Below, in pieces: positions 9,870 to 54,357 of a stretch of 64,000 nt of DNA; position 1 is the stretch's first letter, and every line of letters begins with the position of its first letter. This DNA comes from Tubulanus polymorphus (lineage: Eukaryota; Nemertea; Palaeonemertea; Tubulaniformes; Tubulanidae). The stretch spans positions 16,370,155-16,434,154 of the forward strand of contig NC_134033.1 in assembly GCF_964204645.1 (NCBI RefSeq). The letters run 5' to 3'. Both the position numbers and the translations under genes were made by a program. A model generated the notes under the pieces. It made no database searches, was not told the origin of the DNA, and was given only the letters and a program-made list of their open reading frames with translations.

Positions 9870-10968
9870 TTATTTGTCGCCGCCGCCGGAACAGCAAAAC
9901 ATCTTAAGGACGATTTCTCGCACTTCCGGTGATGTAAACACGTACAGAATGAAGTTAATGGAATATGAGGCGTCCCAGACGAGCAGCATAACCTCCGCAA
10001 TCACTCCTACAATCTTCAAATCGGGTCGAATCGTGTAAACAGTACTCAACACGGCGCCAGGTGTCGCGCAAATCATAAAAGTTATCGAAATCGCCAGAAA
10101 TAATTTCGTAACGCGGTTCGTCGCCTGCGCCTTTTTGTCGTTGCTGCCGAACGCCGAGTTTTTGCGCAACGTCTTTATCACGATCGCGTTAACGATCGCG
10201 ATCACTAAAAACGACCCGTGACTCAAAGCGATCGTCGTGAAGATCACGTTCGCGAAGTCGGTCGCTAACTTCACCAAACACGCACCTGCTATGTAATGAT
10301 TAGCGACGCCCGGTATCAGCTGATAAGCCCAGATGATTATCGTAAAGGTAAACATACTGGCGATGATTTTCTTCGCCGTCGATTTCGAGCCTAGCCGTAG
10401 ATACGCCAACGGGAACACTAGCGCCACCAATCGGTCGACCGACACGACGATAATCATCCAGTTGCTGAGCGCCGTTACTAGGTAATACACGTAGGACGTC
10501 GCCGCGCACGACCAAGGCCCGACGAACGGTCGAACGATATAACCGTAACCGAGCCATACACCGAGCAGGTTTAGATAGAAAATAAGTCTGATCAGCACGT
10601 TCAGCAGATCGGTGACGGCAAGAACTGCGAGATACACGCTGTAGGCGTGTCGTTTCATCTGGGAACAGGTCATTATGAAAAACGTGAGCGAGTTGCCCAG
10701 AATTCCGATCGGAATGATGATCGCCAGCGATATGACGTTCAACCAGACCTTCCAGGGCGTCACCAAAAAACCCGGTCGGATAGTCGCCGATGTACAAGTA
10801 CGGCCACGGGAATCCGTACCCGAGCGATTCGAAAAAAGCAGCCGGGTCGACGAAGCCGGCAAAAATATTACCGAAACCGCCACCGCCGAAAGCGCCACCA
10901 CCCGTGATGTTTCCTAACGAAAAGTTCGCGTTGGCGAGCATGGATCCCGTTGGTAAAGCTGCCGCCAT
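9870..10968 (-). CDS. Class A (rhodopsin-like) peptide-type GPCR, single exon, interrupted by one apparent frameshift
   Basis: From about 10750 down to the stop at 9870 the frame encodes seven hydrophobic segments. TM1 has GNS, TM2 LAVLAVTD, TM3 the disulfide Cys (GPWSC) and DRL in place of DRY, TM6 CATPG in place of CWxP, and TM7 SINFILY in place of NPxxY. This combination is common in orphan and FMRFamide-type invertebrate receptors; the ligand is unknown. The ATG at 10968 starts a second frame that gives a plausible extracellular N-terminus with two N-glycosylation sites (NFS, NIT) and a Gly/Phe-rich stretch ending GDYPTGFF. The two frames meet at a run of six A on the plus strand (10765-10770). 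With five, they would be continuous. This is an assembly error or a real lesion. The ATG at 10901 in the 7TM frame gives a poorer N-terminus. Confidence 0.85.
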
Positions 10969-22000: not shown

Positions 22001-25000
22001 CATCCTAGTAATTGATTTATCTTCAAAGATTCGTCTAAACATTCATTTATTACACTAGTAAATAAATTATTCAGGCAGCTCAAAAGAGTTCTGGCGAGGC
22101 TCGCGTGCTAATGGGTTAAAGAGTCATAAATATTTACCTCATAATCGTCGTCCCGCGCGCAAGCGATATGTAAAGGCGTCCGTCCGCCTAAGATCGATCT
22201 ACTGACATCATCGATCTGATCTTTAATCCATTCATCGTACTGTAAGAGCGAGTGACGGAACAATTTGAGTTTAACACGTAAAACTGTACCCCAGAGTCAG
22301 CAGTTGGTTGAAGTAATACGGTCCCTACAGATCAGTCATAAAATGGTTGCAGTGGAGTCGGAATTGTAGCGACTGCGATAGCTGCGGCAATAATTAACTG
22401 AATGATTTTTCCTTTGAATACCACGTTTTGACGAAATTGATGTCAATTCAATTCGCAGCAGCAACAAATAAGAATCTGTCAAAAATCAGCAACTGGCCGC
22501 AGCGATCAAAAAATGCTTCCCACGTCCCTGGGTTGAAGTAAACCGATGATGCCGTGACTTTTATGGAATAAATTTAACGATATCGACCCAACTTTTGAAA
22601 ACCTTAACAAACAGTTTCAATTAATACGAATTACGTATGTCTAGTCATCAAATTTTTCTCTCCAACTTTCTTAACTCCGCGCGATAAAAAAGTTTATTTC
22701 ACTTTTAAATTGAAGTCTGTCACTATCAATTCTGCAGAAACATACTTGGCCATCCTTTATACGTACTGTGGCATTATCTAATCATTGTAATACGTAATCA
22801 TTTCGAATAAAGTGACTTATAAGTCTAAATTAGGGCTGGGAACTAAAACTATAGCTTCTATCTATGTTCATATATGATGTACATGTCACTATAATAGATA
22901 GATGAATAACTAAGTGTCGTGGTTACGTACGAGTAGTTTATTGAGAAATGTTTCATCCTCCGCCGATCTGACGTCAGGATTCGCTAAAGCGTCGAGCAGC
23001 AGACGTGTGATCTGAACTCCTTCTTCACCCGGTAGAGCGCACGATATGTGCAATGCAGCTAAACCACCTTTCTGTAAAACAGATCGAACAGTTCGATTAG
23101 AAACCAGGGGCCAGTTGCACAGTCGTGACTTAAGTCCAAAAGTGATCTTAAATTTTAAGACTGGTCTTAAGTTGTTAGATTGGCTATAGAACAAAGTTGA
23201 TCTTAGACTGGTCTTAAGTCTAAGCCATGACTTTGGAACCGGCCCCAGTTTATCGTGAACCAATTCCATAGGTTGTAAGTCACATTAAGTTGAGCTAATT
23301 TTCTAATCTTAACCCAGAATTGTGGAACTGGGGCCTGAGCCATAGAAATGGATTCAGTTTTACAATCTTAGATCCAGATCCACAGTTCTGGATCCAGTTC
23401 AACAATTCTGGAGCCAGTTCCACAGTAGGCCTACTGGACCCAACAGTTTGGGACTATTCCAGAGTACACTAACTAAACTGAACTGTCCTGAATTGTGGAA
23501 CCGGGTCCACGTGGAACTGTGTGGAATTGTATACATGTCGAACTGTGGCCGGTGAATACCTCTTTAGCGAGTGTAGATTCTGTCGAAGCTCCTTTCAACA
23601 GGAGCAGACGCACCATCTCGACGTCTGCAGCTTTAACCGCGAAAAACAGAGCAGGCATCGGGACAGACGCCGCATTAGGATCAGCTCCACGCTGTAATAA
23701 TAACTGTATCGTACTTTCCATCAGAGTATACCTACAAGAAACAATACCAAATAAAGCTTTATTCATTTCAACTCTTAGATGGTGGCTTATGTTAATACTT
23801 AATTTTACAATTCCGGGCCCTGTTGCTGAGTGATGTATGAAGTCTAATAGGGATCGTAAATTGAAAGACTAATCTTATGTTGTTAGATTGGCTTGACTTG
23901 GCTATGTTACCTAAGACTGTAAGATCGGCTATAGAACTAAGATGGTCCTAACACAGGTCTTAAATTGTTAGGTAAGCTATAGAACTACAAGGTTGTCTGG
24001 AACTAATATTGTATTAGACTGGTTTTAATGATGTTAGATTGGTTATAGAACAAAAATGAACTTAGACTGATCTTAAGTTGTATGGATTGATTATAAAACT
24101 TGGACTGGTATCAAATCAAAGCTATAACTGGCTATAGGACCCAATTCCCGTGTATCCACAGTTCGATAGTTCTGAAACCGAATCCTGAACTGTGGAACCT
24201 AGTCTTAAACCATTTTTAAATTGAAACTTACTCAGATTTTTTGACGGCTAACTGTCTGGCGGTACCGTCATCTCCGACCTGACATCGTTCCATCACCGAC
24301 TCGTTACGACTCAAGGTCGTCGCGCACCGTTCCACGAGCTGATTGGTCACCGTGATCGAGTAATTACGCATGGAGACGTTCGATTCGAAGTCGCTGAACG
24401 GAGTCAGTAAATCCGTACGGTATTCGTCGACGTCCTGACCCGCGTCCGAACCCTCGTCCGAAGTCGAACGCTCGCGAGTCGTATTGAGTTTTACCCTCGC
24501 GGTATTGTCGCCGGTACCGTGATGAGGATCTATGACCTCAGAACTCGCGAGGGTCCGCGTCGGCGCGGCGACCGGCTGCTCGGTTTTCTTTCTGTTCGTT
24601 TCTACGTTCAGTTTTTTTCCGCCGACCGTCGACGCCTTTTTCAAATTCGCAGCTACGCGAAACAATAGAAACGAAACGACATTGTGGTTACCATAGAGAC
24701 AACTGATAAAATCATCCCTGGTTTTAGAAACACAAATTAGAGCAGCCATGCTTAGGTTATTTAAGCGACCATCTTAGATTCTGATTAGCGGTCATCTTGA
24801 ATTTTAGATTTAAGTGGCCATCTTGGATTCTGTTTAAAGCAGCCATCTTGGATTCTGATTAAAATGACCGTCTTGGATTTCTAATAAAGCGGCCATCTTG
24901 GGTTTTGGTTTAATTTTCATCAAAGCATCCATCTTGGATTTTTATTAACGAATCCATTGAATTTGATTTAAGTGGCATTCTTGGATTTTGAATAAAGCGG

Positions 25001-28000
25001 CCATCTTGGATTTGACTTCACGTTGAATTCTTTGAAAAGCAATATTTACGTTTTTTTCGTTCCGATTTCTTATCACCGTGCGTCTCCTTCATAATGCCCT
25101 TGACGTCGGTGTGTTCGCCCTTGACCTCCGGAGCGTTGTCTGCTATTGTCGTCTCGGCGATGTTCTGTTTGAATCGATCGATCGGATAAAAGAACACGCA
25201 GCACGTCGCCAACGACGACATGCCTTCATCTGTCATTTTATTGACGTCTGCTCCGTGATCGAGTAAACAGTTGATCACGTCCTTAAACCAGTTCACCTGA
25301 AACACACATCATTTCTAATCATGTTCCACAGTTCTGGACTCAGTTTCACAATTCTGGACCCAGTTCCACAGTTCTGGACCCAGTTCCACAGTTGCGGACC
25401 CAGTTCCACAGTTCTGGACCCAGTTCCACAGTTCTGGACCCAGTTCCACAGTACTGGACCCAGTTTCACAATTCTGGACTCAGTTCCACAGTTCTGGACC
25501 CAGTTCCACAGTTCTGGACCCAGTTCCACAGTTCTGGACTCAGTTTCACAATTCTGGACCCAGTTTCACAGTTCTGGACCCAGTCCCACAGTTGTGGATC
25601 CAGTTCCACAGTTGTGGACCCAGTTCTAAGCTGCTTCACCCTTTCAGTGCCGTCTAATCAATACCTGGTGATAGCTGGTAATAATTTGAAAATATTTCAA
25701 AAACTCCACCCCAGTGCATAGTAAGAACAGGCATACCACTATAGTCTACATCGCAGTGCGGTGTACCGGTATCTTTAGTTACTTACATGTTTAACAGATG
25801 CTGCCATCTTTCAATAATATAGAATGAATAAGATAAACACTAATTACTAATGATATCAATACGTCGCGATGTGTTAGCTAAAATCCAGCGCTGATTAATA
25901 CACCGCACTACGGTGTAGATCAACTGAAAGACCTCTAAACTTGCTAGAATACTCACAGAAGCTGCGATCAACGAAGTGAACCCGTTCTTATCGGCAACAT
26001 CAACAAACGCTTTACGTTCGTTCAAAATGGCCGCCACAAGTGTCAAATCACCGTTCATCGACGCTTGAATCAACTGTTCGGACGCGAGTTCAATCGCACC
26101 GCGCTCGCCGCTAAACCCCGACCGGTCGCCTCTCATTATCGCCGCTACATCGAACGAGCAATCGCCCGAAAATGAGTCGTGTTTTAATACGTGTTTCTGA
26201 ATTTCCACACAAGATGGCGTTTTGTTCAGTATTTTAACCGGTTGTTGCTGCTGCTGCTGTTGCTCGTCAGCTGCGAGATCCTCGCTGCTCATCGTGTTCT
26301 GTTTGAAATATTCGGTATCGAATATTTTCCGATCTATCGCCGCGCTGCGCGGATCCAACGTCTCGCTGAATATACTAGCGCTAGTCGATTCGCGCGAGAT
26401 TCCTCCAACGCCGATTCCCGTCGATTGAATTTTACGCAGATTCTTTTCGTTTTCGTCGGAGCAGACGTCGCCGAAACGTCGCACGTTGTCGTTGATTCGC
26501 ACCCGGCTGCTTCGTCCGGTTACTCGCGATTCCTCGTGTTCAACGCCCTCTATATCCGGTTTGATGTACTCGACGTGGTGCGCCGGATTGTACTCGAATT
26601 CCGCGTGATCGGACATCGTAAAAGCGCCCTCTATCGGCGTACATATTTTCAGCAGACGCTCGCGATGCCACAAGCCGACGTCTTGTTTGCCGTCGGTGTA
26701 GGTTAAAACGCCGGGACCTTCTCTCTCATCGGCGCGGTATAAACCCTACAAATACAGTCCCGAAAAATATCAGGGCAAACAGTTTCATAAAATTGATTTT
26801 AAAGATTTTGAGGAGAAAATTCAAAATTACGAGGAAGTGTCTGCATCACTTTCATATCCCAAATTCTGTAGACTCCTAAATCGGTTCTGTTTATCTTAAG
26901 TAAACCATTAATTTGGTGGATTTGTAAGCAAATTTTCATCATTAAGTCTATCTAAACTTGGTTTCTAATTCGCTAACCGCCTAATTGTTACTTATGGCAG
27001 GGGTTCGCATTGATGAACTCACAGGTGACTGGTAGGTTGACAATGATCTCAGAGTAAATGAGCAAAACCCTCAGTTCGTGATGGTTTCTCTGACAATGAA
27101 GTTTTAATCAAAACTTCAAAAATGTCAGAAGTCGGTTTCACTCAATAACGCAGGGTTTTCCACATTGTTTTCCCATAAATTCTTCCCAGATTTTTCACTA
27201 TTTCGAATTTTGCGAATATTTTTGCGCAAACTTTTCTCGCATTTTTTTAAACATATTTTCATGATTTTCATGGATATTTCACATTTTTTCACTCGCATCG
27301 ATCAAACAAAAATTTGAAGAGTTAAAGCTGCATGATGCTGCATTAAGATGGACAAATTTCACCATAAAGATCCAACCTTGTATCAACGACTAATCTGAAC
27401 ACAATAACTATGATTTCTAATTTTCTAAGGCTGCACGAATGCCATACGTACCTCGAACTGCGAGCCGTCTGGGTAAGTAAAAATGCCGTAACCTTCCTTT
27501 TTATCCATATAAAACAATCCGGAAAACGCCGATCCATCCGGCCATTTATATGTTCCGCGTCCATGGCGACGGTCTCTAAAAAACTGACCGGCATACTCCT
27601 GAAAATGAGAAATAGAAAAAATCATTTCCCGATCATAAAGTTCTATATATGATTTTGAATTAATCTCTGGATCTAAAACCTTTAGGTAGCTGCCGTTAAA
27701 TTTGACTCTAGATTTAGAAATTCAAATGAAGTTTGATTTTTTTTTAAACCAAAAGAACACGCGATAGAAATATAAGTCGGTCAACCCTTAATCAAGTTAT
27801 ATCCGGCTGAATTTATAACCGGGCGGACGTACGTGATCAGTTTGTTTAGAGTAATAACAAATCTAGCTGTTTGAATGTTATAACGATCAATGAACGTCAC
27901 GCTACTAGTCACACTAGTCATACTAGTCACGCTAGTCACGAATAGCCTACAATAAACACTGCACAATACGTGCTATACTTCAGTATTGAGTGCCGGGGAA

Positions 28001-40424: not shown

Positions 40425-41514
40425 TCAATGACTCTCACCTTTCTTTCCCGTCACCTGAAATAATAAAAAGAAAGTATTTCTTAGTGGTTAATTATTGATG
40501 TCGAAAAGTCTGCAAAACATTCTTAGAATCTTGAAAATTATACAGCGGAACCTCGTTGCAACGAACTTCGGGGCACCAGAAAATCTGTTAGTTATAATTC
40601 GTTATATCAAGTGTGGAAATAATTGATTTTGTCTTATCTGGAATGAAATTTAGTTTTGTAGTAACTGATAAATTGTTCAAACGAGGTTCCACTGTAAACA
40701 GAGTTCTACAGATGGTGAAAATGTCTCAGAATTCATTGTCTCAATGCAGGTTGAAATTCCAAATAAGGAAATAACATCTGACGAAATCATCTTGAAAATA
40801 ACATCTTAAAATTGATCTACGCTGGTCGACGAAAATGAAAATCTTCACCCGTTAACGAAAATATCATCTTTTGAAATGATCTTGAAAATAACAATCTTTA
40901 AATCGATCTACACCGGGCGATGAAAAAAACAATCTTACGACGGGCGCCTTCGTCGGCATTTGAAACTTACTTGTTTGAAGTCGAACATGGTCGTAGCCAT
41001 CTCAGGTGAACCGATAGATCCTAAATAGTTAATAACGGTTGTCTCTTCACCTCCTTGATTATCATTTACGAATATCTGGAAAATTAACATAATGCGTGGA
41101 TAATTAACTCGAATAAAACTAATGTCTCCAACAATCCCCAAAAATCTTTGAATCAACGACAAGTAGACTGTGCTTCAGGTGAAAAACTAAATTGTGTTGA
41201 AATCAGCCTTTTCTAGAGTCTTAAAAGAATCTTAGAGAATCAATCTTTAACTTCCATCTAAAGACTAATAGAAATTCATTGAATTGGCAGTTTTTTTTCA
41301 AACTCTTTCGAAGCTGCTGTAATTTTTCTGTTTTTTTTTTTCGAATTTGAACTGTAACTGTTTTAACTATTGAAATATGAAATGATTTTCATTCTTACCG
41401 AATTGCTGGAAACATTTTTGAATTTGACGTATCGTAGCGGTATTAAAGTTCCTTCTTTTACATCATCCGCGGTCAATCTGCGTTCAAAAAGAAACAAGAT
41501 GAAAGAGACTCAGG

Positions 41515-41559
<45 letters not shown>

Positions 41560-43824
41560 AGGGAGGGAGGGAGGGAGGGAGGGAGGGAGGGAGGGAGGGA
41601 GGGAGGGAGGGAGGGAGGGAGGGAGGGAGGGAGGGAGGGAGGGAGGGAGGGAGGGAGGGAGGGAGGGAGGGAGGGAGGGAGGGAGGGAGGGAGGGAGGGA
41701 GGGAGGGAGGGAGGGAGGGAGGGAGGGAGGGAGGGAGGGAGGGAGGGAGGGAGGGAGGGAGGGAGGGAGGGAGGGAGGGAGGGAGGGAGGGAGGGAGGGA
41801 GGGAGGGAGGGAGGGAGGGAGGGAGGGAGGGAGGGAGGGAGGGAGGGAGGGAGGGAGGGAGGGAGGGAGGGAGGGAGGGAGGGAGGGAGGGAGGGAGGGA
41901 GGGAGGGAGGGAGGGAGGGAGGGAGGGAGGGAGGGAGGGAGGGAGGGAGGGAGGGAGGGAGGGAGGGAGGGAGGGAGGGAGGGAGGGAGGGAGGGAGGGA
42001 GGGAGGGAGGGAGGGAGGGAGGGAGGGAGGGAGGGAGGGAGGGAGGGAGGGAGGGAGGGAGGGAGGGAGGGAGGGAGGGAGGGAGGGAGGGAGGGAGGGA
42101 GGGAGGGAGGGAGGGAGGGAGGGAGGGAGGGAGGGAGGGAGGGAGCTTTTTTGCTGCAGTTCCATCTGAAAAATTAAGTTGAATAATTTGAATTTGAATG
42201 TAAGGAGTTTTAAGGCAGAAACTTTCAAATTGTGAGGAAGTGTCTGTATCACTTTCAAATCCCAATTACTGTAGACTCCTCATAAATGGGTACTGTTTAT
42301 CTCAGTAAGCCGTTAATTCAGTGTTTTGTAGGCAAGTTTTATCCTCAGCACTACCTTAACTTGGCTTCTAATTCAGTATCTGGCCTACCTAGTAATTGGG
42401 TAATGAAAAATCCTCGTCCCAACTTTACAGATTCAGGCATAGTCTAATGTACAACTACAAAAATTTCTAAATTTCCTATTTCTCAAAATTGAAGGAGTTT
42501 CAAGCACCTTTTAACAGCTTTTTCAGTTTTAAAGGAGTTTTGAAGGAATCAAGGAGACATGGGGACCCTGTTTAAAGGAATTAAGGAGACATGGGGACCC
42601 TGTTTAAAGGAATTAAGGAGACATGGGGACCCTGTTTAAAGGAATCAAGGAGACATGGGGACCCTGTTTAAAGGAATCAAGGAGTCTTAGAGACGCTGGA
42701 GTCTCTTACCGTCTGGGGCGTACATCTTTAACGAACTGTTTCATCTCTTTCTCCTGGCTCTTGATAATGCTTCTTGATGTTTTCCTTTCGACTTTGACCT
42801 TGTTTTTGAAGAAGGTGTAGGTCGGCATCGCTGTATATTGTACCGATTCGTCACTTCCTAAAAAGTGACGAATAAATCATTAAAGCAGAATACGACGGGT
42901 TTTTTGGACGCTTTAAGTACAAACGAACCCGTCTCTCATGGACTTACGGTCAATTTATCGACGTCAACTTTTAGAAAAACGGCATTAGAATATTTGGTGG
43001 CGTCTCCTTCGAAGACAGGAGCGATTCGATGACAAGGGCGCCACCTACAGATAAATCAACAAATACAAACAGATCCGTTAGTACACAGAGGTTAAGTGAT
43101 AGGGTTAAGGTTATAGCAAATAAGGCATATGTTTTTCTTGACCTCTCAATCAATTTGTAAATAGTTTATCAAAAGAGCCACCGATTGATTGACGGAAAAA
43201 TCGGAATGGATTTTTGTTTATTTTTTCGCTCAGGCTATTTTTACGACGCCGTTAACGGATGACACTAGCTATATTTACGACGTTTCATTCTGATTGGCTA
43301 ATCACGTTGCGCATGCGCACTAGGGTGCGCGACTTAGAAAATTCAAGGCAAGTGTGGAGAGTTAGAGAAAATCGAGCGGATCGAGCGAGACTCGAACCCG
43401 GGCCAGTAAATTACTAGCGCAGCATCATACCACTAGATCACCGAGCTCGCTGGGATTCGGTCGAATGTTTTAACTAGATATAGCCTCACCTTACCCTAAT
43501 CCTATCCCGGGGGTAAAACGGACCCTTACCCTAACCCTAACCCTCTCTGGACCCTCTTCTCACCCTCTTGACACTAATCCTCTCCTCTCTTGACCATAAT
43601 CCTAAATTCAATATAAAACCGTCGTAAATGTAGAATTCACGACCGCTTTACGACGCCGTAAATATAGCCACTTTGTTATTTTTTTGGTGGCCCGGCCCGG
43701 TCTGTCGGGCAACTAACTTTAACCAGGTTGCGAACAAATCTACGACGACCATTTTCGAACCAGCGCTGTTCAGTTCAGCCTGAAATTCAGCATCATCGTT
43801 TAAAACTTTTAAATTACCAGACAT
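40425..43824 (-). CDS. TXNL1: Thioredoxin-like protein 1 (TXNL1) homologue, incomplete or damaged
   Basis: Exons recognised: 43724-43824 (start, thioredoxin beta strand VVVDLFATW), 42948-43044 (RIAPVF... VFLKVDVDKLT), 42710-42857 (AMPTYTFFKNK), 41399-41477 (PITH domain, LTADDVKEGTLIPLRYVKF), 40971-41075 (IFVNDNQGGEETTVINYLG... DFKQ) and 40425-40454 (VTGKKGESH, stop). The C-terminus matches TXNL1 closely; TXNL1 is a redox protein bound to the proteasome through PITH. Three oddities. The active site reads WRPC where CGPC is expected, losing the nucleophilic Cys. Exons 2 and 3 are out of phase by one base at the junction ACC|GTAAGT. The exons for the first half of PITH, expected between 41477 and 42710, are missing where a ~590-bp GGGA array now sits. 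The exon 1 donor (GTTAAA) is also weak. It may be a decaying copy, or a normal gene spoilt by assembly at the array. Confidence 0.85.
40541..40697. repeat. MITE with CAGYGGAACCTCGTT ends (pogo/Tigger-like), copy 1
   Basis: TACAGCGGAACCTCGTT at the left and AACGAGGTTCCACTGTA at the right are inverted repeats flanked by TA. Related copies are at 58446-58614 and, partially, 58970-59040. The terminal motif resembles pogo-type elements common in animals. Confidence 0.75.
41520..42145. repeat. Very long GGGA tetranucleotide microsatellite, preceded by (GA)n
   Basis: A (GA)n run of about 33 bases is followed by roughly 148 uninterrupted GGGA units (about 590 bases). All plus-strand purine. The ORFs read through it (Gly-Arg-Glu-Gly and Pro-Ser-Leu repeats) are artefacts. 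It lies inside TXNL1 where PITH exons are expected. Confidence 0.95.
42185..42400. repeat. Dispersed repeat, second copy of 26795-27010
   Basis: Shares GAGGAAGTGTCTGTATCACT, TACTGTAGACTCCT, CTGTTTATCT and ACTTGGCTTCTAATTC in the same order as the copy in ANKMY1. Confidence 0.65.
42535..42690. repeat. Minisatellite, AAGGAGACATGGGGACCCTG units
   Basis: Four tandem units of about 37 bases (AAGGAGACATGGGGACCCTG then TTTAAAGGAAT), immediately upstream in window order of the TXNL1 exon at 42710. Confidence 0.85.
43378..43452 (-). repeat. tRNA-derived SINE head
   Basis: Minus strand shows GCTCGGTGATCTAGTGGTAT (A box) and CCGGGTTCGAGTCTCGCTCG (B box) about 30 bases apart. The acceptor stem is imperfect and no 3' end is formed, so a SINE or tRNA pseudogene is favoured over a working tRNA. 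It lies in TXNL1 intron 1. Confidence 0.6.
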
Positions 43825-44700: not shown

Positions 44701-47700
44701 ATGGTTTATAACAAGTAAGTTGTTAATTCTACGCAGTATAATAAACGACGCGATGAATTGGGTCGCGCATTCAAAAAAGAAGAACACTTGTCTCTAATGA
44801 ATGGTGTTAGTGTATGCAAGATAGTATGTAGATGAGTCGTGCTTCCTGGCGTCGAATCAATGAATAGGTTAACTCGATTTAATCATGCACTCTCTAGACA
44901 ATGATTTTATCAAAAGCACGCGCTTTATTGCTAGGCATACTATAGTGCATACTAGCTTTATCGAATACACTTGAACTTGAACTTATATTTATTGCGCCGT
45001 ATATAACATTTATACATAGGATAAGTCATGCGACAAATTTACAGGACAAAACATTGGAGAAGAGTACATAATACATGTAGCATAAAAACAACAGCTTATA
45101 CCAGAAACACCAGCTTGTTCCAGAATACACAGCCGATTAGTCAGGCATACTCACCCGATGAAGCTACTGTAACCCAGTGTAGCGAAAACTGATCATTTAT
45201 TAAGTTTTTAGCTTAGACATTTTCATGAAACTGAGTTGGGCATTATTCATTGCTTGCGTCCAAAGATGATCTCAAAACTAAGAGACTTGTATTAGATATG
45301 ACATAGATTGTCCTAGATCTCGACCTTGACTGACCCCTGGCTGGAATCCTGCGACACCTATACCCAGAAATCCCAACTATCAAACATGTTTTCTTGTTTT
45401 AGGTTTTTCGCAGTTCTGGTGGTTCTATTGGCGATACTGGTGTCACATGACGCGTTACCGCTTTACGACCGCAGCGCCTCTGCCGGTCACTTGCTACTAC
45501 AACAGTACCTCGACGCCAGTCGCAGCTTGAGCGATCACGTGATCGTCGATGGCGACGCCGAACAGCAGACGTCTACCAGTCACGTGGCCCGGCAACAACT
45601 GAGAGGTTTGGCAAAAAATATCTTTGGCCATCCTCGCTTGCCAGGTCTTGGATTGCCCGTCCGCCGAAGTTCACACCAATAACAACCCTGGCCGCAAATA
45701 TTTAATTGGGCGCACAGGGGTCCCGTTCAGCGCCCACCAGTCTATATATCAAGCCAGTCAGATGCGTTTTTGCAGGCACGACGTTTGCTCTACAAATACC
45801 ACGCATCTGATTGGCTAGATATATAGACTGGTGGGCGCTGAGCGGGGACCTGTCCGCGCAAGAAATCGCGGGGCAATGTAATAGACCAATGAAGGGTTTG
45901 CGGCCAGGGGTTTGTGTTGGCGTGAGCTCCAGTGGGCGGCAATCAAACCCTGGCAAGCGAGGATGATATTTGACGTGAATAACCGAAACATCATTTTTTT
46001 GCATCCAAAACTATTTATATAACCTGTAAGAATCCTGGGCCCGGTTTCATAGACCGAGTATCAAAGTTTTCCCTAGGGGTAAATCCTCAATCTGGGTGAC
46101 AAAACCACCATAGTTACAATGAGAAACCATGGTTATAACAGGCAAATTTCAGAATGTTCCCAGGGACTCTTTTTCTTCCACATCTATGAAACCCACCCCA
46201 GGGTCTTGTGTCCAAGACCATCGAATATTGTGAGTTGCCCCTATCTCATATTTGATTGGGATCTCTTAAAAACGTTTACCCGGGCGCGTTGGAAGCAATG
46301 TTTTATTGCTGCGGCCAAATGCCGATTTTGGACAGATTCTTAAAATTCTCAACAACGCCACTGCTACCGGCATATCAAATGGAATCTTTCTTATAAACTT
46401 CTCTCTTTTGGTTGGATAAGGGCAAGTTTTCCACTCTGAAACTCTGCAAAGAATGTACCTCGCTTATCAACAAATGTTCAAATGCGTCGCCTTAATTTCT
46501 TATACGCCTCTTAAATTGACTTTCCTTTTCACTGATCAAAAAATACCCCCGGATATGACACAAGAATTTTAAAAGTCGACCGCGGATCTGTCCCTGCATT
46601 TTATAACTATATTTGTTGAAGATGGCGACTTATTTTGCAGCCGTATCCAAAGCTTTATGGAGCGTCATCTGGTCTCGGTACACACGTGGCAATACGGAAG
46701 TGGGGACAATGAGTTGCGCCACCTGTCGGTTTCTGGTGATAGCAGTAAAGACCCTAATCGAACAGCAGCCGACGCGTGAGAAGTTAATAGAAGGACTGAT
46801 CAGTATCTGTAAAGTGCTCAAAATCGAAGATACTCGCGTTTGCGATAGTGTAATCAGAGAATTCCAGGTACGGGGAACGGCAGCTGAATATTCCACCCAT
46901 ATCCACAGTGCTCTGCGACGTTATATATGGATTCTTAGCGAGTCTACATAAAGTGTTTAGATATGTTTTCCTTCTTGGAATTCTTGGTTTTTTTTTCTAG
47001 AACGAAGTTTTATACGTTGTGTCGCATTTAGTGTTTGACGCGGATGAGTTGTGTGGACTGGTTGTCGGCGATTCGTGCGGTAAACCTTACAATCCAATGG
47101 ACATGTGGAACGTATCTTTACCTAACATACCGAAACCACCGATTCGTCCACCAGTTCCACCAAAGGTAACCTTTATGGGGAAAATGGGGCATCTTTTGAT
47201 AAAATATGTGGGTGCATCGCAACTGGGGCCATCTTTCGTTTAAAATATGTTGGTGCATCGCTACTGGGGGAGGGGGCATCTTTTGATAAGATATGTGGGT
47301 GCCTCGTTGCTTGGGGCATCTTTTGATAATGGGGGGGGGGGGGGGTGAGGGGCATATTTTGATGAAATAGGCCTATGTGGCTGAATCTGCAACATGGTCT
47401 GTCCGTTCAAATCTATAACACGAATAAAATGGCTCTAAAAGTTATGATTTCGCTAAAATGACCCCTAAAATCACGAAATATCTATTTTTCAAGCCTGGTT
47501 CACCTACATTGAGGATTCTACAGTTAGCTGATATACATTACGATCCTCTGTATAAAATAGGCAGCAATGCGAAATGCGGAGAACCACTTTGTTGCCACGA
47601 AGTGGACGGAATGGCTCGTAAGTATTGCTTGCAACACAGGAATAAATACCCCTGAAATTCTTGAATAAGAGTTGCATTCAACTCATTTAATTCACCCGTC

Positions 47701-50700
47701 TTCGGATATATTAACACATTACCCAAGTCATCACTATTTGTGAGTCCACATCTAAATATTTCTAATCTACTTTACTAAGTGTAGGTCGTCATGTGGATAA
47801 GTGTTATCACATTACCAGCTGAGATCATCAGTATTTCGAGTCCCAATTCTTATTTCCAATTTATACATTACTAACTGTGAGCCATAATTTTGAATCGTCA
47901 CATTACGGAAGTCACCTCTATTTTGAGTCTCAATTTGTATTTTTCAATTTTCAACTTACTAAATAGGCCATAATTTTGTTGAGTCGTCACACTACTGAAG
48001 TTGTCTCCTATTTTACATGTATTTAAAATTCAATTTACTAAGTGAAAGTCGTCATTTGGATTTCGGAATGACTACGAAAACTTCAAAAGTTCCAATGCAG
48101 GAACATGTGATATAATGTCCCGTTTTGTATTTAAGCTCCTGGTAAACCGGTGGCTGGCAAGTGGGGATATCCCGGATCGTGCGACTCGCCGATACAATTG
48201 ATCGAAAATCTGTTCGCTCACATTAACAAAACCGATAAAGTAAGAAATCGAAGAAAATAAATATTCATAATTTTGTCCAAACATATTGGACGACCACACG
48301 CACAGTGGGCTTCATAATTTTGTCCAAACATATTGGACGACCACACGCAGTGGGCTTCAAGATTGTATCCAAATACATTGAACGACAGCACAGTGTAGAC
48401 TACCCCCCCTCCCTGCCCCATCCCCATAACCAGGCACGGTTGGCTACCCCGCAAAGGAAGACACACAGTCAACACACAGTACACGGTCATAGAACAAAGC
48501 TAAGCCGTAAGCACGTGCGACGGCGATCAATGATGACGAATCTTCGTGAATTTCCACCCGTATATGTCATATATACCGCAAGCTCGGTGATGTAGTCACG
48601 TGAGGAGTGATAGTGAAATCCTTTAGATTTTGGCGAAGGCACCTCATAGGTGACTGACCCACTGACTAAATTGTCCGCTAGATGGCGAACTAGTCGAAGG
48701 TGGCTGCTCTTACAGCACTGGCATGTAGTGTAGAGCTGTCTTGAGTTGACCCTGGCTCCTTTTCTCTACAACTCTTACGTCAATAGAGACGATGTATTTG
48801 TTTTGTGGTGGTTTTTGTATTTGTTTTGTGGTGTTTTCTACGTAGTTTGATATGATCTATTGGACCGGTGATCTGCCCTCTCACAACGTCTGGAACCAGA
48901 CTCGTGCGCAACAAATCGCCGTATACAAAACACTGACGAAACTGTTCCTGAAATATTTCCCGGGAGTACCGATATACGGGGCTTTAGGAAACCACGAGAG
49001 CGCACCTGTAAACAGGTACGTAGGAATGGCATGTTGAAAGTGTGATTGGATCCAGGACCCAATATTCTAACGGCTTAAACGGCTCTAACAGCTTATCTTA
49101 CCTCAAAATGTGGAACTGGATCCTGAGTTCAGAGTTAACTCTAGCTCACAACTTTGTAACTGGAATTAAATAACTGGATCCTGAGTTCAAAACTGTGAAT
49201 TGAGTTTTGACTCAGATTAACTCATTGGAAATTAACTAATTTTAACTCAGAGTGATCACTAACTCACGACCGTGGAACTACTGGCCTCTGGATCCTGGAG
49301 TTCAGTGTTAACTCACAACTGTGGAACTGGATCCTGAGTTCTGGGTTAACTCTAACTCACCGATTGTGGAACTTAATCCCCGTGCTAGCCCCCGTGCCAT
49401 TAACCTCTCTGCGTAACTATCTCATTCCAGTTTTCCTCCGCCGTTTATAACCGGGGACAACTCGATTCGATGGTTGTACAGCGAAATCGACCAAAGCTGG
49501 AGTCATTGGTTACTTGATTCGACCAGACGAACCATCCTCTAGTAAGTTTAACCCTCTAGCTACATAACTATCAGTCAGAAAAAATGCCGATTTTCACAGC
49601 ACCAAACAGTCTTGGATTATCATTGAATTCTGAGTTATTTTCAGCGGTGGTTATTATACGGCTTTGGTGAAACCCGGATTACGAGTGGTGTCGTTAAACA
49701 TGAATTACTGTAACAATCAGAACTGGTGGTTATTGCTGAATTCTACAGACCCGGCTCAAGAATTACAGTGGTTAGTCGATGTATTGCAACACGCCGAGAA
49801 TAACCACGAAAAGGTATTTCACAGCGGTGCATCCTTCATCGGCGGGGATTCAAACCTGATGGCATCGTGAGACGCTGCCACGTTCCTCCCTCGGTAGGGA
49901 TTCGAACCTGATGGCTTCGTCAAACTCTCGGCAGGGGTTCAATAGATTCAAATCCCTGTCACGAAAGCTGCATTACAGATTGTCACCTTGACCTTTTGGA
50001 TCTGTGTATTATCTGTGTAAAAGTAAAATACGTATAAGTAGTTGTTTTATTCTGTAGGTTCATATCATAGGCCATATTCCGAATGGGAAGTGGGATTGCA
50101 TGAAACCATGGAGTTGGAACTATTATAACATCATAAACAGGTATTTGAATAAATTCACCTTTAATAATGTTAGCGAACGAAATACAACTCGAACATTATA
50201 GAATCTCAACTGTGCATCTACAGCAGTCCTAACGCTACCGAGTTTCTGATTCTCAACTCTGCAACTACAGCAGTCCAAACGCTACCGAGTTCCCTGATTC
50301 TCAACTCGGTAGAATATTTCATTCGTCCTTCACGTTAAGTAAATTTCCTTGCTATAAAAATGTTGTATCTTTGTCATTTATGATATCAGAAATAAAAGAA
50401 CGATATTTTACGGTGTAGACATTATCATGAATGTTGAATTCATTCTGTGATATAAAGAACTGAATATATGAATCACAATGGAAGCTCGTGGGTCGGTTTG
50501 AAATCTAGCCAACCTTCGAAATTCTATTTATATAGAAAACATATAACCGAATTTCAATTCTAGCGGCACGCGTTTTTACGAGCAGTTTCCAGCCGCTGGA
50601 CAAAAAAGCTTTCGCATGCAATAGCTGGAAATTGCCGCTGGTAGCTGGAAACCGCTCCCGCAGTTTGGCCGTTTTCACGAGCGTTTTTGGTGGCAGAGCT

Positions 50701-53700
50701 GGAAACCGCTGTGCTAAGCATTTTTTTCGAGAGGTTTCAAGCCAGCAATTTCCAGCTGAGAAATTTTGCAGTAGCTTTTTCCAGCTGCCGGGTTTTCCAG
50801 CTCGGGTCCAATGGTTCGGTTGTGTTTTCACGAGTGGCAGCTGGAAACCGCTCGTTAAAACTAGCCTTAACTAACGAACCTACTAAATTCGAGTAGCAAA
50901 AACTCGCACTTTTGATAAAATCTTATTAACCCTACGCTTTGCAGTAAGCCTCACCCATAAAACTCAGATAAGGCCAACTCGGAATTTTTATCTAACTCAG
51001 ACAACAAACGAAATCGTTTTTTTCTGACTGGCCAACGCATTTTCCTATCAAGGTTTAATTTTACCACCGGTGCGGCGAGGTTTACTGTAGTATTTGTCTT
51101 AACGTTTTACCGCTTCGACATTAGGTTAACGAAAGCTCTTCTAACGACTCTCCTTATTTTCATGAAAATGTCTAAACCTCGTCACATTTTCAGATACGAG
51201 AGCGTCGTCGGCGCTCAGTTCTTCGGCCACACGCATCGCGATGAATTCGAGATATTCTACGATTTGTCGAATAAATCGCGAGCGTTGAATATCGCTTACA
51301 TATCGCCAAGTGTGACTACGTTACCGCGGCTGTTTCCAGGGTATCGTATTTACACCGTCGATCGACAGCCGTCTGCCATGGTACGTCACGACACCGCACC
51401 GCACCACGTGACCTATTATAGTCAGCGCACGCGTTCAACCAATCAGCATTCGGCATTAACTTCACACAGGCGCATGCGTGAAGCCCACGCTCTCTCACTC
51501 TATCTAGCTTTGTGTTTTGTTTTGGTGATAGGTTATATCAGTGGACTATAAAACGAATATTCGTTTTAAATGTTTAATTAAGACTAAAAGAATCGATACC
51601 TTGTTTCTCCGCTCTACTGAGCTTTAAAGTTGACCCGACCGGCCGCCTATCTACCCTGTATATTACTATTTTAAAAATGGTGATCAATTTTACCATAACA
51701 GACCCGGCCGCTATAGAAATGAGCTGATTACAAATTCCATTACATTTTACAAAAAATAGCCCGCTGCGAAGAAACAAGGTATCATTTTTGTTTAGCCTCA
51801 TGATTAGTTTGTTTTTCACACAGTGTGTGCTACACTTTTTTGACGGACAATCAAAATGCACATTTTAACTTGACAAAATGCACATTTAACCATTCATAGT
51901 CCATGATTTGATTATCATAGATTGTCTAAATTAGGCACGGGCCAAAATCGTCTCCGAGCGATCGAGGCTTATGTCCACTGGTAAATGAACCCTAACCCAA
52001 CAGTATTAAGAGAATCAAACAACAATGATTAATAATATAAAGTTCGAAAATGTCTCCCTAAACTTGTATAGTTCATTCAAAGTCTCGACCATCCTAATTA
52101 TAGTCACATCTTCAGGAAAACTGTATTCCTTGAACTAGTGTAGTTTATTCAACGTTTCGACCATATCCTAATAGTCATCTTCAGGAATACTGTATTCCTT
52201 GAGCTAGTGTAGTTTATTCAACGTTTCGACTATATCCTAATAGTCATCTTCAGGAATACTGTATTCCTTGAACTAGTGTAGTTTATTCAACGTTTCGACT
52301 ATATCCTAATAGTCATCTTCAGGAATACTGTATTCCTTGAGCTAGTGTAGTTTATTCGACGTTTCGACTATATCCTAATAGTCATCTTCAGGAATACTGT
52401 ATTCCTTGAGCTAGTAGTTCATTCAACGACTATATCCTAATAGTCACATCTTCAGGAAAATTGTATTCCTTGAGCTAGTGTAGTTTATTCAACGTTTCGA
52501 CTATATCCTAATAGTCATCTTCAGGAATACTGTATTCCTTGAGCTAGTAGTTCATTCAACGACTATATCCTAATAGTCACATCTTCAGGAAAATTGTATT
52601 CCTTGAGCTAGTGTAGTTTATTCAACGTTTCGACTTTTTCCTGAAAGTCATCTTTAGGAATACTGTATTCCTTGAGCTAGTGTAGTTTATTCAACGTTTC
52701 GACTATATCCTAATAGTCATCTTCAGGAATACTGTATTCCTTGAGCTAGTGTAGTTTATTCAACGTTTCGACCATATCCTGATAGTCATCTTCAGGAATA
52801 CTGTATTCCTTGAACTAGTGTAGTTTATTCAACGTTTCGACTTTACCCAGCTCAGTCATTCTCGAGAACACTGAATTTTTCGTCATTATTGTGGGATTCT
52901 CTTCATATCTGTATCGTCACAACACGGATATATTGGCTTATCTATGGTTAACTCTAAGCCACCTTTCGAGCAACTGGCCCTGGGTTTATCTATACTGGTA
53001 GATTTTAGAATGGTTGCGGGGTTCTTCTATTGGCACAACTGAGAACCTTTAGATTCCTGTACAAATGTCCTGCATGCACCACTCTCTATATCCTACCTAT
53101 ATTTCCAGATATGAAGGCACGGTAGCCGGTCAATTTTTCGGTCACACGCACAAAGACGAATTCGAAATATTCTACGATCAAAATGACGTCAGACGAGCGA
53201 ATAATATAGTTTTTATATCGCCCAGTATCACCCCTTTTACTGCGACCCCTAATTATACTCTTAACTCCGGGTATCGCATTTATACCGTGGATAATACAAT
53301 ACGAAAGGTAAATAACGATGACCCAACTAACATTTATTTACAGTAAACCTCGCCCTAACCTCGGACAAACCGGGACCGGTGGAAAAATTGATCCGGGGTT
53401 AGTGAAGACAGCGTTAATGATCGGAAGATACGTTTATGAAGTTGGTGAAACATCAAAATGTGATGTTTCAGTCCGAGTTTGAGACGAACGTCGAAAATTG
53501 ATTTCATAAGGCGAGGTTTACTGTTGATACGTCTAACTCATCCTCGCTTGCCAGGGTTTGATTGCCTCTCGCCGAGCCCATACCCTGGCCGCAGACCCTT
53601 CATTGGTATATTACATCGCCCAAGATTTCACGAGTGGACAGGTCACCGCTAAGCGGCCACCAGTCCATACGTCTAGCCATTCAGATGCGTTGTTTTCACC

Positions 53701-54258
53701 GGCAGATACGCTCTACCAATTTGGTCGACAACTGTACGTAATTCGTGTTTCTGAATCAGAAAACCAAAATGTCCGTTACATCATTTCAGGATGTTTTGGA
53801 TCATGAAACGTATATATTGAACATCACTGAAGCGAATATCTCCAACGACCCTAAATGGGTCCTCGAATACAAAGCTAAGGTAAGCGTCGCTACAAAATGG
53901 AGGATTCGATGTTTTAACCGTATTCAAATTCTAGATTTATGTCGATATTCGTCCTCGACTACTTCTTTATAGGACGCTTACGGTATGACATCATTGTACC
54001 CACGTGACTGGGATAAACTCGTGCAGCGAATGAAAACGGACGACGAATCGTGGAATAAATTCCAAACGTAACGTTTTAAAACACCGATCAGGTTCGAATC
54101 CCAGCGTGTGTAAAGTCACGAATTTTTTTTTCACATTTTGCAGATACTACGTGAAGTCTTCGGATTCGTCAGCTCGATGCGAGGGCAGCGCCTGTCGACA
54201 CAGCATGCTATGTGCTTTACAGACTGGACGGTCACACGATCAAACGTTCTGTAACTAA
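44701..54258 (+). CDS. SMPD1: Acid sphingomyelinase (sphingomyelin phosphodiesterase 1), with a duplicated catalytic exon
   Basis: Exons: 44701-44714, 45403-45605, 46641-46867, 47001-47165, 47494-47617, 48136-48239, 48846-49015, 49431-49541, 49645-49813, 50058-50140, 51194-51380 (11a) or 53109-53307 (11b), 53790-53879, 53973-54067, 54144-54258. Every junction is in phase: 618 residues with 11a, 622 with 11b (human about 630). Order: signal peptide, saposin B domain (MSCATCRFL... VCDSVIREF), Pro-rich linker, then the metallophosphatase domain with metal and catalytic motifs [27 protein letters not shown] and FGHTH, and a Cys-containing C-terminal domain. It hydrolyses sphingomyelin to ceramide in lysosomes or outside the cell. 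Exon 1 is a 14-bp piece chosen because its phase-2 GTAAGT donor completes a good signal peptide; the alternative ATG at 45386 reads through a likely acceptor. Exons 5 and 6 use AAG acceptors. Confidence 0.93.
45629..45965. mobile_element. Palindromic MITE with CATCCTCGCTTGCCAGG ends
   Basis: CATCCTCGCTTGCCAGG at the left and CCTGGCAAGCGAGGATG at the right are perfect inverted repeats. An inner inverted pair (GCGCCCACCAGTCTATATAT) makes the whole element foldable. It starts 24 bases after the chosen exon 2 donor of SMPD1. A half-copy is at 53537-53715. Confidence 0.85.
50560..50873. repeat. MITE-like element with GCTGGAAACCGCT repeats
   Basis: CTAGCGGCACGCGTTTTTAC at the left and CGTTAAAACTAGCC at the right are diverged inverted ends; GCTGGAAACCGCT/AGCGGTTTCCAGC-type motifs repeat inside in both orientations. 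In an SMPD1 intron. Confidence 0.65.
51597..51795. repeat. Second copy of the GATACCTTGTTTCTC MITE
   Basis: Ends GATACCTTGTTTCTCC and GAAACAAGGTATC are inverted; the core CCGACCGGCCGCC matches the copy at 9515-9747. It lies between SMPD1 exons 11a and 11b. Confidence 0.75.
52030..52850. repeat. About 62-bp tandem array between SMPD1 exons 11a and 11b
   Basis: About 13 units around AGTGTAGTTTATTCAACGTT, TCGACTATATCCTAATAGTC and ATCTTCAGGAATACTGTATT; two units are shortened in the same way (AGCTAGTAGTTCATTCAACG), suggesting higher-order duplication. The end at about 52890 resembles the outer part of the hairpin at 8513. Confidence 0.85.
53343..53523. repeat. MITE-like element with CAGTAAACCTCGCC ends
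   Basis: ACAGTAAACCTCGCC at 53340 and GGCGAGGTTTACTGT ending at 53523 are inverted repeats. The left end abuts SMPD1 exon 11b's downstream intron. A related diverged pair is at about 50938-51092. Confidence 0.7.
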
Positions 54259-54347: not shown

Positions 54348-54357
54348 GAAAAATAAA
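54348..54357 (+). terminator. Polyadenylation signal of SMPD1
   Basis: AAAAATAAAT contains AATAAA about 90 bases after the SMPD1 stop codon. Confidence 0.6.

Follow-up and report, generated by a model that had tools for sequence, protein, structure and literature searches.

The window analyzed here, a 64-kb stretch of DNA (positions 16370155–16434154 of contig C9, in a genome of 268 Mb and 77 contigs that was also searched), carries a single SMPD1-type acid sphingomyelinase gene. Gene structure points to an animal genome; a search of the assembly for COX1 gave no match. The gene lies on the + strand, with its ATG at 45386 and the last base of its TAA at 54258 (Table 1). We modeled it with 13 coding exons per isoform: nine before a pair of alternative exons, which we call a and b, one member of that pair, and three after it. 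GT is present at 13 of 13 donors and AG at 13 of 13 acceptors of this model. The introns around the pair measure 1053 nt 5' of a, 1728 nt from a to b, and 482 nt 3' of b. The pair had been numbered exon 11 in a first-pass annotation of this DNA, a number that does not match the nine coding exons found upstream of it here, while the coordinates given there for the two exons proved exact.

Table 1. Exons of the SMPD1-type gene and repeats in the introns flanking its alternative exons, in window coordinates.
Feature	Coordinates	Strand	Remarks
Coding exon 1	45386..45605	+	ATG, hydrophobic N-terminus, in phase with exon 2; further 5' exons possible
Exon 2	46641..46867	+	Saposin-B-like region begins; Pfam SapB_1 E 3.3e-4, under the curated cut-off
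Exon 3	47001..47165	+	End of saposin-like region, then proline-rich linker
Exon 4	47494..47617	+	Equivalents of human D206, H208
Exon 5	48136..48239	+	Gene model
Exon 6	48846..49015	+	Equivalents of human D278, H282, N318, H319
Exon 7	49431..49541	+	Gene model
Exon 8	49645..49813	+	Gene model
Exon 9	50058..50140	+	Human H425 equivalent; last two bases start an Arg codon
Alternative exon a	51194..51380	+	187 nt; FGHTH, Leu at human Tyr488 position, sequon NKS, short loop 5' of GYRIY
69-bp tandem array	52107..52842	+	10.8 copies, in the a–b intron
Alternative exon b	53109..53307	+	199 nt; FGHTH, Phe at human Tyr488 position, longer loop with sequon NYT 5' of GYRIY
Dispersed repeat with inverted ends	53336..53530	+	Lies in the intron 3' of b and includes one arm of the strongest intron–intron pairing found
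First common exon after a/b	53790..53879	+	Encodes [18 protein letters not shown]...
Common exon	53973..54067	+	Gene model
Last coding exon	54144..54258	+	Contains TAA; AATAAA at 54352

Other features of the window lie outside this gene. On the - strand, a single open frame at 9870-10913 encodes a rhodopsin-type G-protein-coupled receptor (Pfam 7tm_1, E 2.6e-19). An ankyrin-repeat frame lies at 23473-23868 on the same strand (Pfam Ank, E 3.5e-6), within a stretch spanning 23473-26745; a further frame in that stretch, at 25840-26745, resembles MORN and ankyrin repeats on visual inspection and gave no Pfam family match. A long simple repeat at 41470-42180 reads as GREGGREG-like on the + strand and as PPSLPPSL-like on the - strand in the listed frames.

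The product of the SMPD1 gene is predicted to be an acid sphingomyelinase (SMPD1 type) rather than SMPDL3A or SMPDL3B. The b isoform matched acid sphingomyelinase structures at E 1.7e-162 to 4.5e-144, with an alignment covering residues 95-622 and including the saposin domain and linker, as against 9.2e-58 or weaker for SMPDL3A and 2e-52 or weaker for SMPDL3B. Metallophos and ASMase_C domains were recognized by Pfam in both isoforms; SapB_1 alone reached 21.0 bits, under the Pfam cut-off of 25.2. All seven zinc ligands (human D206, H208, D278, N318, H425, H457 and H459) and the active-site histidines H282 and H319 are identical in both isoforms. Across the common part of the protein, nine of the ten human active-site or contact residues that we checked are identical, and the tenth, E388, is replaced by Gln.

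Three protein queries of the genome returned no convincing locus besides the SMPD1 gene, although their loose first pass could miss distant paralogues such as SMPDL3. Two weak matches were discarded: the one on contig C11 (E 1.42) falls in what appears by eye to be an unrelated frame, and the one on contig C10 (E 0.126) falls on a short tandem repeat. A query with the family also found nothing elsewhere in the genome, but it was insensitive, the SMPD1 gene itself reaching only E 1.18. Scans of prokaryote contigs with exon b and of viral contigs with exon a gave no match, in keeping with an animal gene.

Exons a and b are clearly homologous. The peptides [22 protein letters not shown] and GYRIYTVD are shared by the two. 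Identity, earlier estimated at about 60%, is 36 of 61 for aligned residues and 112 of 183 for nucleotides (42, 45 and 25 at the first, second and third codon positions). Their difference in length amounts to four residues, made up of a five-residue gap before GYRIY and one residue in the opposite direction further on. The NYT sequon within the longer loop before GYRIY is confined to b, as the first-pass annotation had claimed. When each copy was searched against the window with tblastn, it found the other with E values of 5.3e-20 and 6.6e-20, which excludes chance likeness; the remaining matches in the 64 kb had E values of 2.3 to 9.9, and there is therefore no third copy there. Taken alone, each exon also matched acid sphingomyelinase structures (best E 1.9e-17 for a and 6.5e-16 for b).

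Both exons follow an AG, finish at a codon boundary and have a GT donor directly 3' of them, and the first base of each completes the Arg codon opened in the preceding exon. The start is A|TAC in a, as reported previously for both, and A|TAT in b. Exon 9 breaks off two bases into a codon and the common exon after the pair starts on a whole codon. To keep the frame, either version therefore has to consist of a single base and a run of complete codons; the lengths are indeed 187 = 1 + 186 and 199 = 1 + 198. Either exon joins its neighbors in phase, as had been proposed, giving an open frame of 619 aa with a alone or 623 aa with b alone. Because each exon is 3n+1 nucleotides long, however, using both in series produces ATA TGA at the a/b junction, with the stop at codon 522, and using neither leads to a stop within 10 codons, at codon 468. 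A complete enzyme is encoded only by transcripts with exactly one of a and b. The first-pass annotation had argued against double inclusion on the ground that it would duplicate the metal-binding block. That cannot happen, since the frame shifts and an immediate stop truncates the enzyme; the frame-based ground is the stronger of the two, and the claim of exclusivity is therefore strengthened.

Mutually exclusive splicing of a and b is, in our judgment, very probably the best explanation for this arrangement. At the level of sequence, this proposal from the first-pass annotation is supported by adjoining homologous exons, equal phases, intact frames, GT/AG sites and the clash of frames if both or neither are used. 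A survey of human genes took similarity, equal reading frame and similar length as the marks of a candidate pair, and counted a frame shift with decay on joint inclusion among the routes to exclusivity (PMC5740500). Here, the exons are adjoining and internal, at 187 and 199 nt they differ by a multiple of 3, and they have an equal frame, no in-frame stop and splice sites at both ends. A device against joint inclusion is present in the form of the stops that follow from using both or neither, with decay as its presumed second step. The same survey warns that many similar adjoining exons are not spliced exclusively (PMC5740500). By eye, we did not see minor-spliceosome sites, and the frame shift is the sole device found against splicing from a to b across the 1728-nt intron.

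We propose that an old tandem exon duplication gave rise to a and b, that the cell uses both, and that the gene could thus make two full-length enzymes through exclusive use of one or the other. In RNAs with both or neither, a premature stop would fall far ahead of the final exon junction, and such RNAs would probably be removed by nonsense-mediated decay. The choice would swap a stretch that contains two zinc ligands, kept in both versions, together with a residue packing on the catalytic histidine.

These same improper joins could instead be the point of the arrangement. The pair might serve mainly as a quantity switch, in which joint inclusion or skipping makes a stop on purpose and lowers output, either through decay or through a truncated, possibly dominant-negative protein. 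Both improper joins truncate the protein ahead of the common C-terminal region, and human SMPD1 has inactive or decay-prone forms, some of them reported to be dominant-negative (PMC3338701, PMC4405572). A pure switch, however, has no need of a second coding-competent exon under protein-level selection, and we regard it as very unlikely to be the main role of the pair, though it may coexist with mutually exclusive splicing.

To compare splice sites, we scored them with a matrix built on the 11 common sites per end. The donor of a outscored eight of the 11 common donors and that of b six of the 11. The acceptor of a was the lowest of the 13 (0.04; two common exons scored 1.04 and 1.23), and 24% of all AGs in the window do at least as well. 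Exon a may therefore be the minor form, although a matrix made from so few sites is too small to settle which form dominates.

The good donor on a also speaks against another way in which this exon might be used, namely to end the message. The frame from a stays open to 51551, and read-through past the donor would add 56 codons with a hydrophobic end, which could yield a shorter, membrane-anchored form. A tail equally hydrophobic follows 19 of the 7350 GT sites in the window, counting both strands. Such a form would lose the C-terminal domain, whose side chains constrain H457 and H459 in the human enzyme (PMC5062611), and neither AATAAA nor ATTAAA occurs in the 1728-nt a–b intron. We rejected an alternative last exon (51381-51551, + strand) because that intron has no polyadenylation signal; its hydrophobic tail is probably due to chance, and a message ending at a seems to us extremely improbable.

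We also asked whether the introns around the pair might interact, as in exclusive splicing of the docking-site/selector RNA structure type, where complementary intron sites around the variants compete. Pairing between the intron upstream of a and the intron downstream of b reached -55.3 kcal/mol, and none of 20 shuffles was as strong (best -50.0), while the other two intron–intron pairings were matched by 4 of 20 and 3 of 20 shuffles. The strong pairing would enclose both exons and so offers no choice between a and b, and its downstream arm lies in a dispersed repeat. All 21 genomic candidates for this repeat were scored, giving 21 matches when its own place is counted. By eye, a similar stretch seems to lie inverted near 51021-51100, upstream of a, and a stem around both exons is possible. 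Other repeats are present in these introns. Members of a foldback-like dispersed family lie in opposite orientation at 53536-53720, in the intron after b, and at 45626-45966, in the first intron; this family gave 58 matches among the best 40 of 528 candidates scored. The unit of the 69-bp array between a and b is likewise dispersed in the genome (142 matches among the best 40 of 399 candidates scored), and several other contigs carry arrays of it, with identity as high as 99% across 241 bases. This satellite has perhaps moved recently or is homogenised.

Differences between a and b number 19, 16 and 36 at the first, second and third codon positions of the 61 codons (Fisher p 1e-4, third versus first and second together). 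The distance dN between them is 0.29-0.35. For dS, NG86 was saturated over the whole alignment and yielded a value, 3.4, once restricted to the first 43 codons, and ML gave 27 and 13; as the silent distance was either saturated or not computable, we used dN/dS for direction alone. Saturated silent sites together with the excess at third positions make both copies look old and constrained. In the 400 nt flanking a and b on each side, likeness does not rise above the chance level (best E of 0.80 upstream, and of 0.066 downstream with the strands opposed), which suits an old duplication.

Could only one exon, probably b, be in use, with the other an unused or decaying relic? The acceptor of a scores lowest of the 13 in the gene, and a has Leu where mammalian sequences have Tyr or Phe. 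Against this, an open frame, GHTH and GT/AG sites persist in both exons despite silent-site saturation, and their differences are mostly at third positions. Simulated neutral decay at 0.3 substitutions per site (5000 runs) left the frame open in 18% of runs for a and 22% for b, and left both the open frame and GHTH in just 1.1% and 1.5%. At 0.1 substitutions per site, open frame and GHTH were retained together in 19% (a) and 21% (b). Use of a single exon therefore strikes us as improbable.

Over the first 44 positions, a and b have seven residues in common against human; a match with human is seen in a but not b at five positions, and in b but not a at three. Over 57 positions, a equals b at 37, and each equals the two mammalian sequences in the alignment at 31 to 34. 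Agreement between a and b is thus barely above their agreement with mammals, and a duplication within the animal's own lineage is not established by these counts. The copies appear to be old, and they may have arisen on either side of the divergence from the vertebrate lineage.

To predict what mutually exclusive use of a and b would change in the enzyme, we numbered the swapped stretch from H457/H459. It corresponds to human residues 445 to about 508, starting at R445 and including Y488. The equivalents of H457 and H459 are kept in both exons. At the Y488 position, the alignment has Leu in a, Phe in b, Phe in the second mammalian sequence, which we take to be mouse, and Val in SMPDL3A. The loop before GYRIY has the human length in a and is five residues longer in b, and the N-glycosylation sequons, NKS in a and NYT in b, differ and sit at different places. 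In human acid sphingomyelinase, H457 and H459 are zinc ligands constrained by side chains of the C-terminal domain, the imidazole of H282 stacks on Y488, and N325, E388 and Y488, all no more than 7 A from the zinc ions, are potential partners for bonding to the substrate (PMC5062611). Among the latter three contact residues, N325 is kept here, E388 is Gln, and Y488 is Leu or Phe depending on the exon. Tyr488 mutants were not named among the papers listed by a literature search; a supposed disease variant at this position was set aside, as the sole literature match concerned GALC. We predict that the swap would tune activity, substrate fit or glycosylation rather than act as an on/off switch of the enzyme.

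More speculatively, the b form, in which the residue against the catalytic histidine is aromatic as in mammals, might be the sphingomyelinase, and the a form, aliphatic there as SMPDL3A is, might have a shifted substrate preference, so that splicing would replace the paralogues of other animals. That three protein queries turned up no second convincing locus, distant paralogues aside, would be consistent with such a replacement. We nonetheless think this idea rather doubtful. SMPDL3A, a nucleotide-hydrolysing relative, has neither sphingomyelin cleavage nor a saposin domain (PMC4961792). It resembles a in its aliphatic residue at the Tyr488 position and resembles b in its TP motif and longer loop (alignment), and it differs from the gene described here both in that missing saposin domain and in the strength of its match (E 9.2e-58, compared with 1.7e-162 for acid sphingomyelinase).

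If the two exons are used as we propose, an exclusive pair would occupy an unusual place, the active site of an enzyme. Two apparently competent active-site exons would make a natural paired comparison of the zinc-site residues that set activity or substrate choice, and would indicate that ceramide production can be regulated via exon choice in a medically important enzyme. The pair would also illustrate neatly how incompatible reading frames can commit a duplicated exon to mutually exclusive use.

The closest parallels in arrangement are the human mutually exclusive exon pairs (PMC5740500), in which the adjoining exons are likewise homologous, comparable in length and alike in frame, and in which joint use shifts the frame. 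They differ in that no SMPD gene is named in the main text of that survey and in that the pair described here is a prediction from DNA sequence. We did not find a mutually exclusive exon pair in SMPD1 in the largely open-access literature searched. The first-pass annotation knew of no such choice in vertebrate SMPD1, and this agrees with the human variants, which arise by exon losses and intron-derived insertions or retentions; the term 'mutually exclusive' is absent from the main texts that describe them (PMC3338701, PMC4405572). The human transcripts ASM-2 to ASM-7, and later ones, belong to the same gene family, and their splicing touches the exon 5/6 region (ASM-6, and a 21-nt loss at exon 6). 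From the figures for ASM-6 (506 aa, 13 unique and 136 lost; PMC3338701), we place the human exon 5/6 border near residue 493-495, which would put it within what is a single exon in the present gene. Those human SMPD1 variants that have been examined are reported to be inactive (PMC3338701). The human forms lose whole or partial exons or gain intron sequence (PMC3338701, PMC4405572), whereas the two forms predicted here are full-length and keep all zinc ligands.
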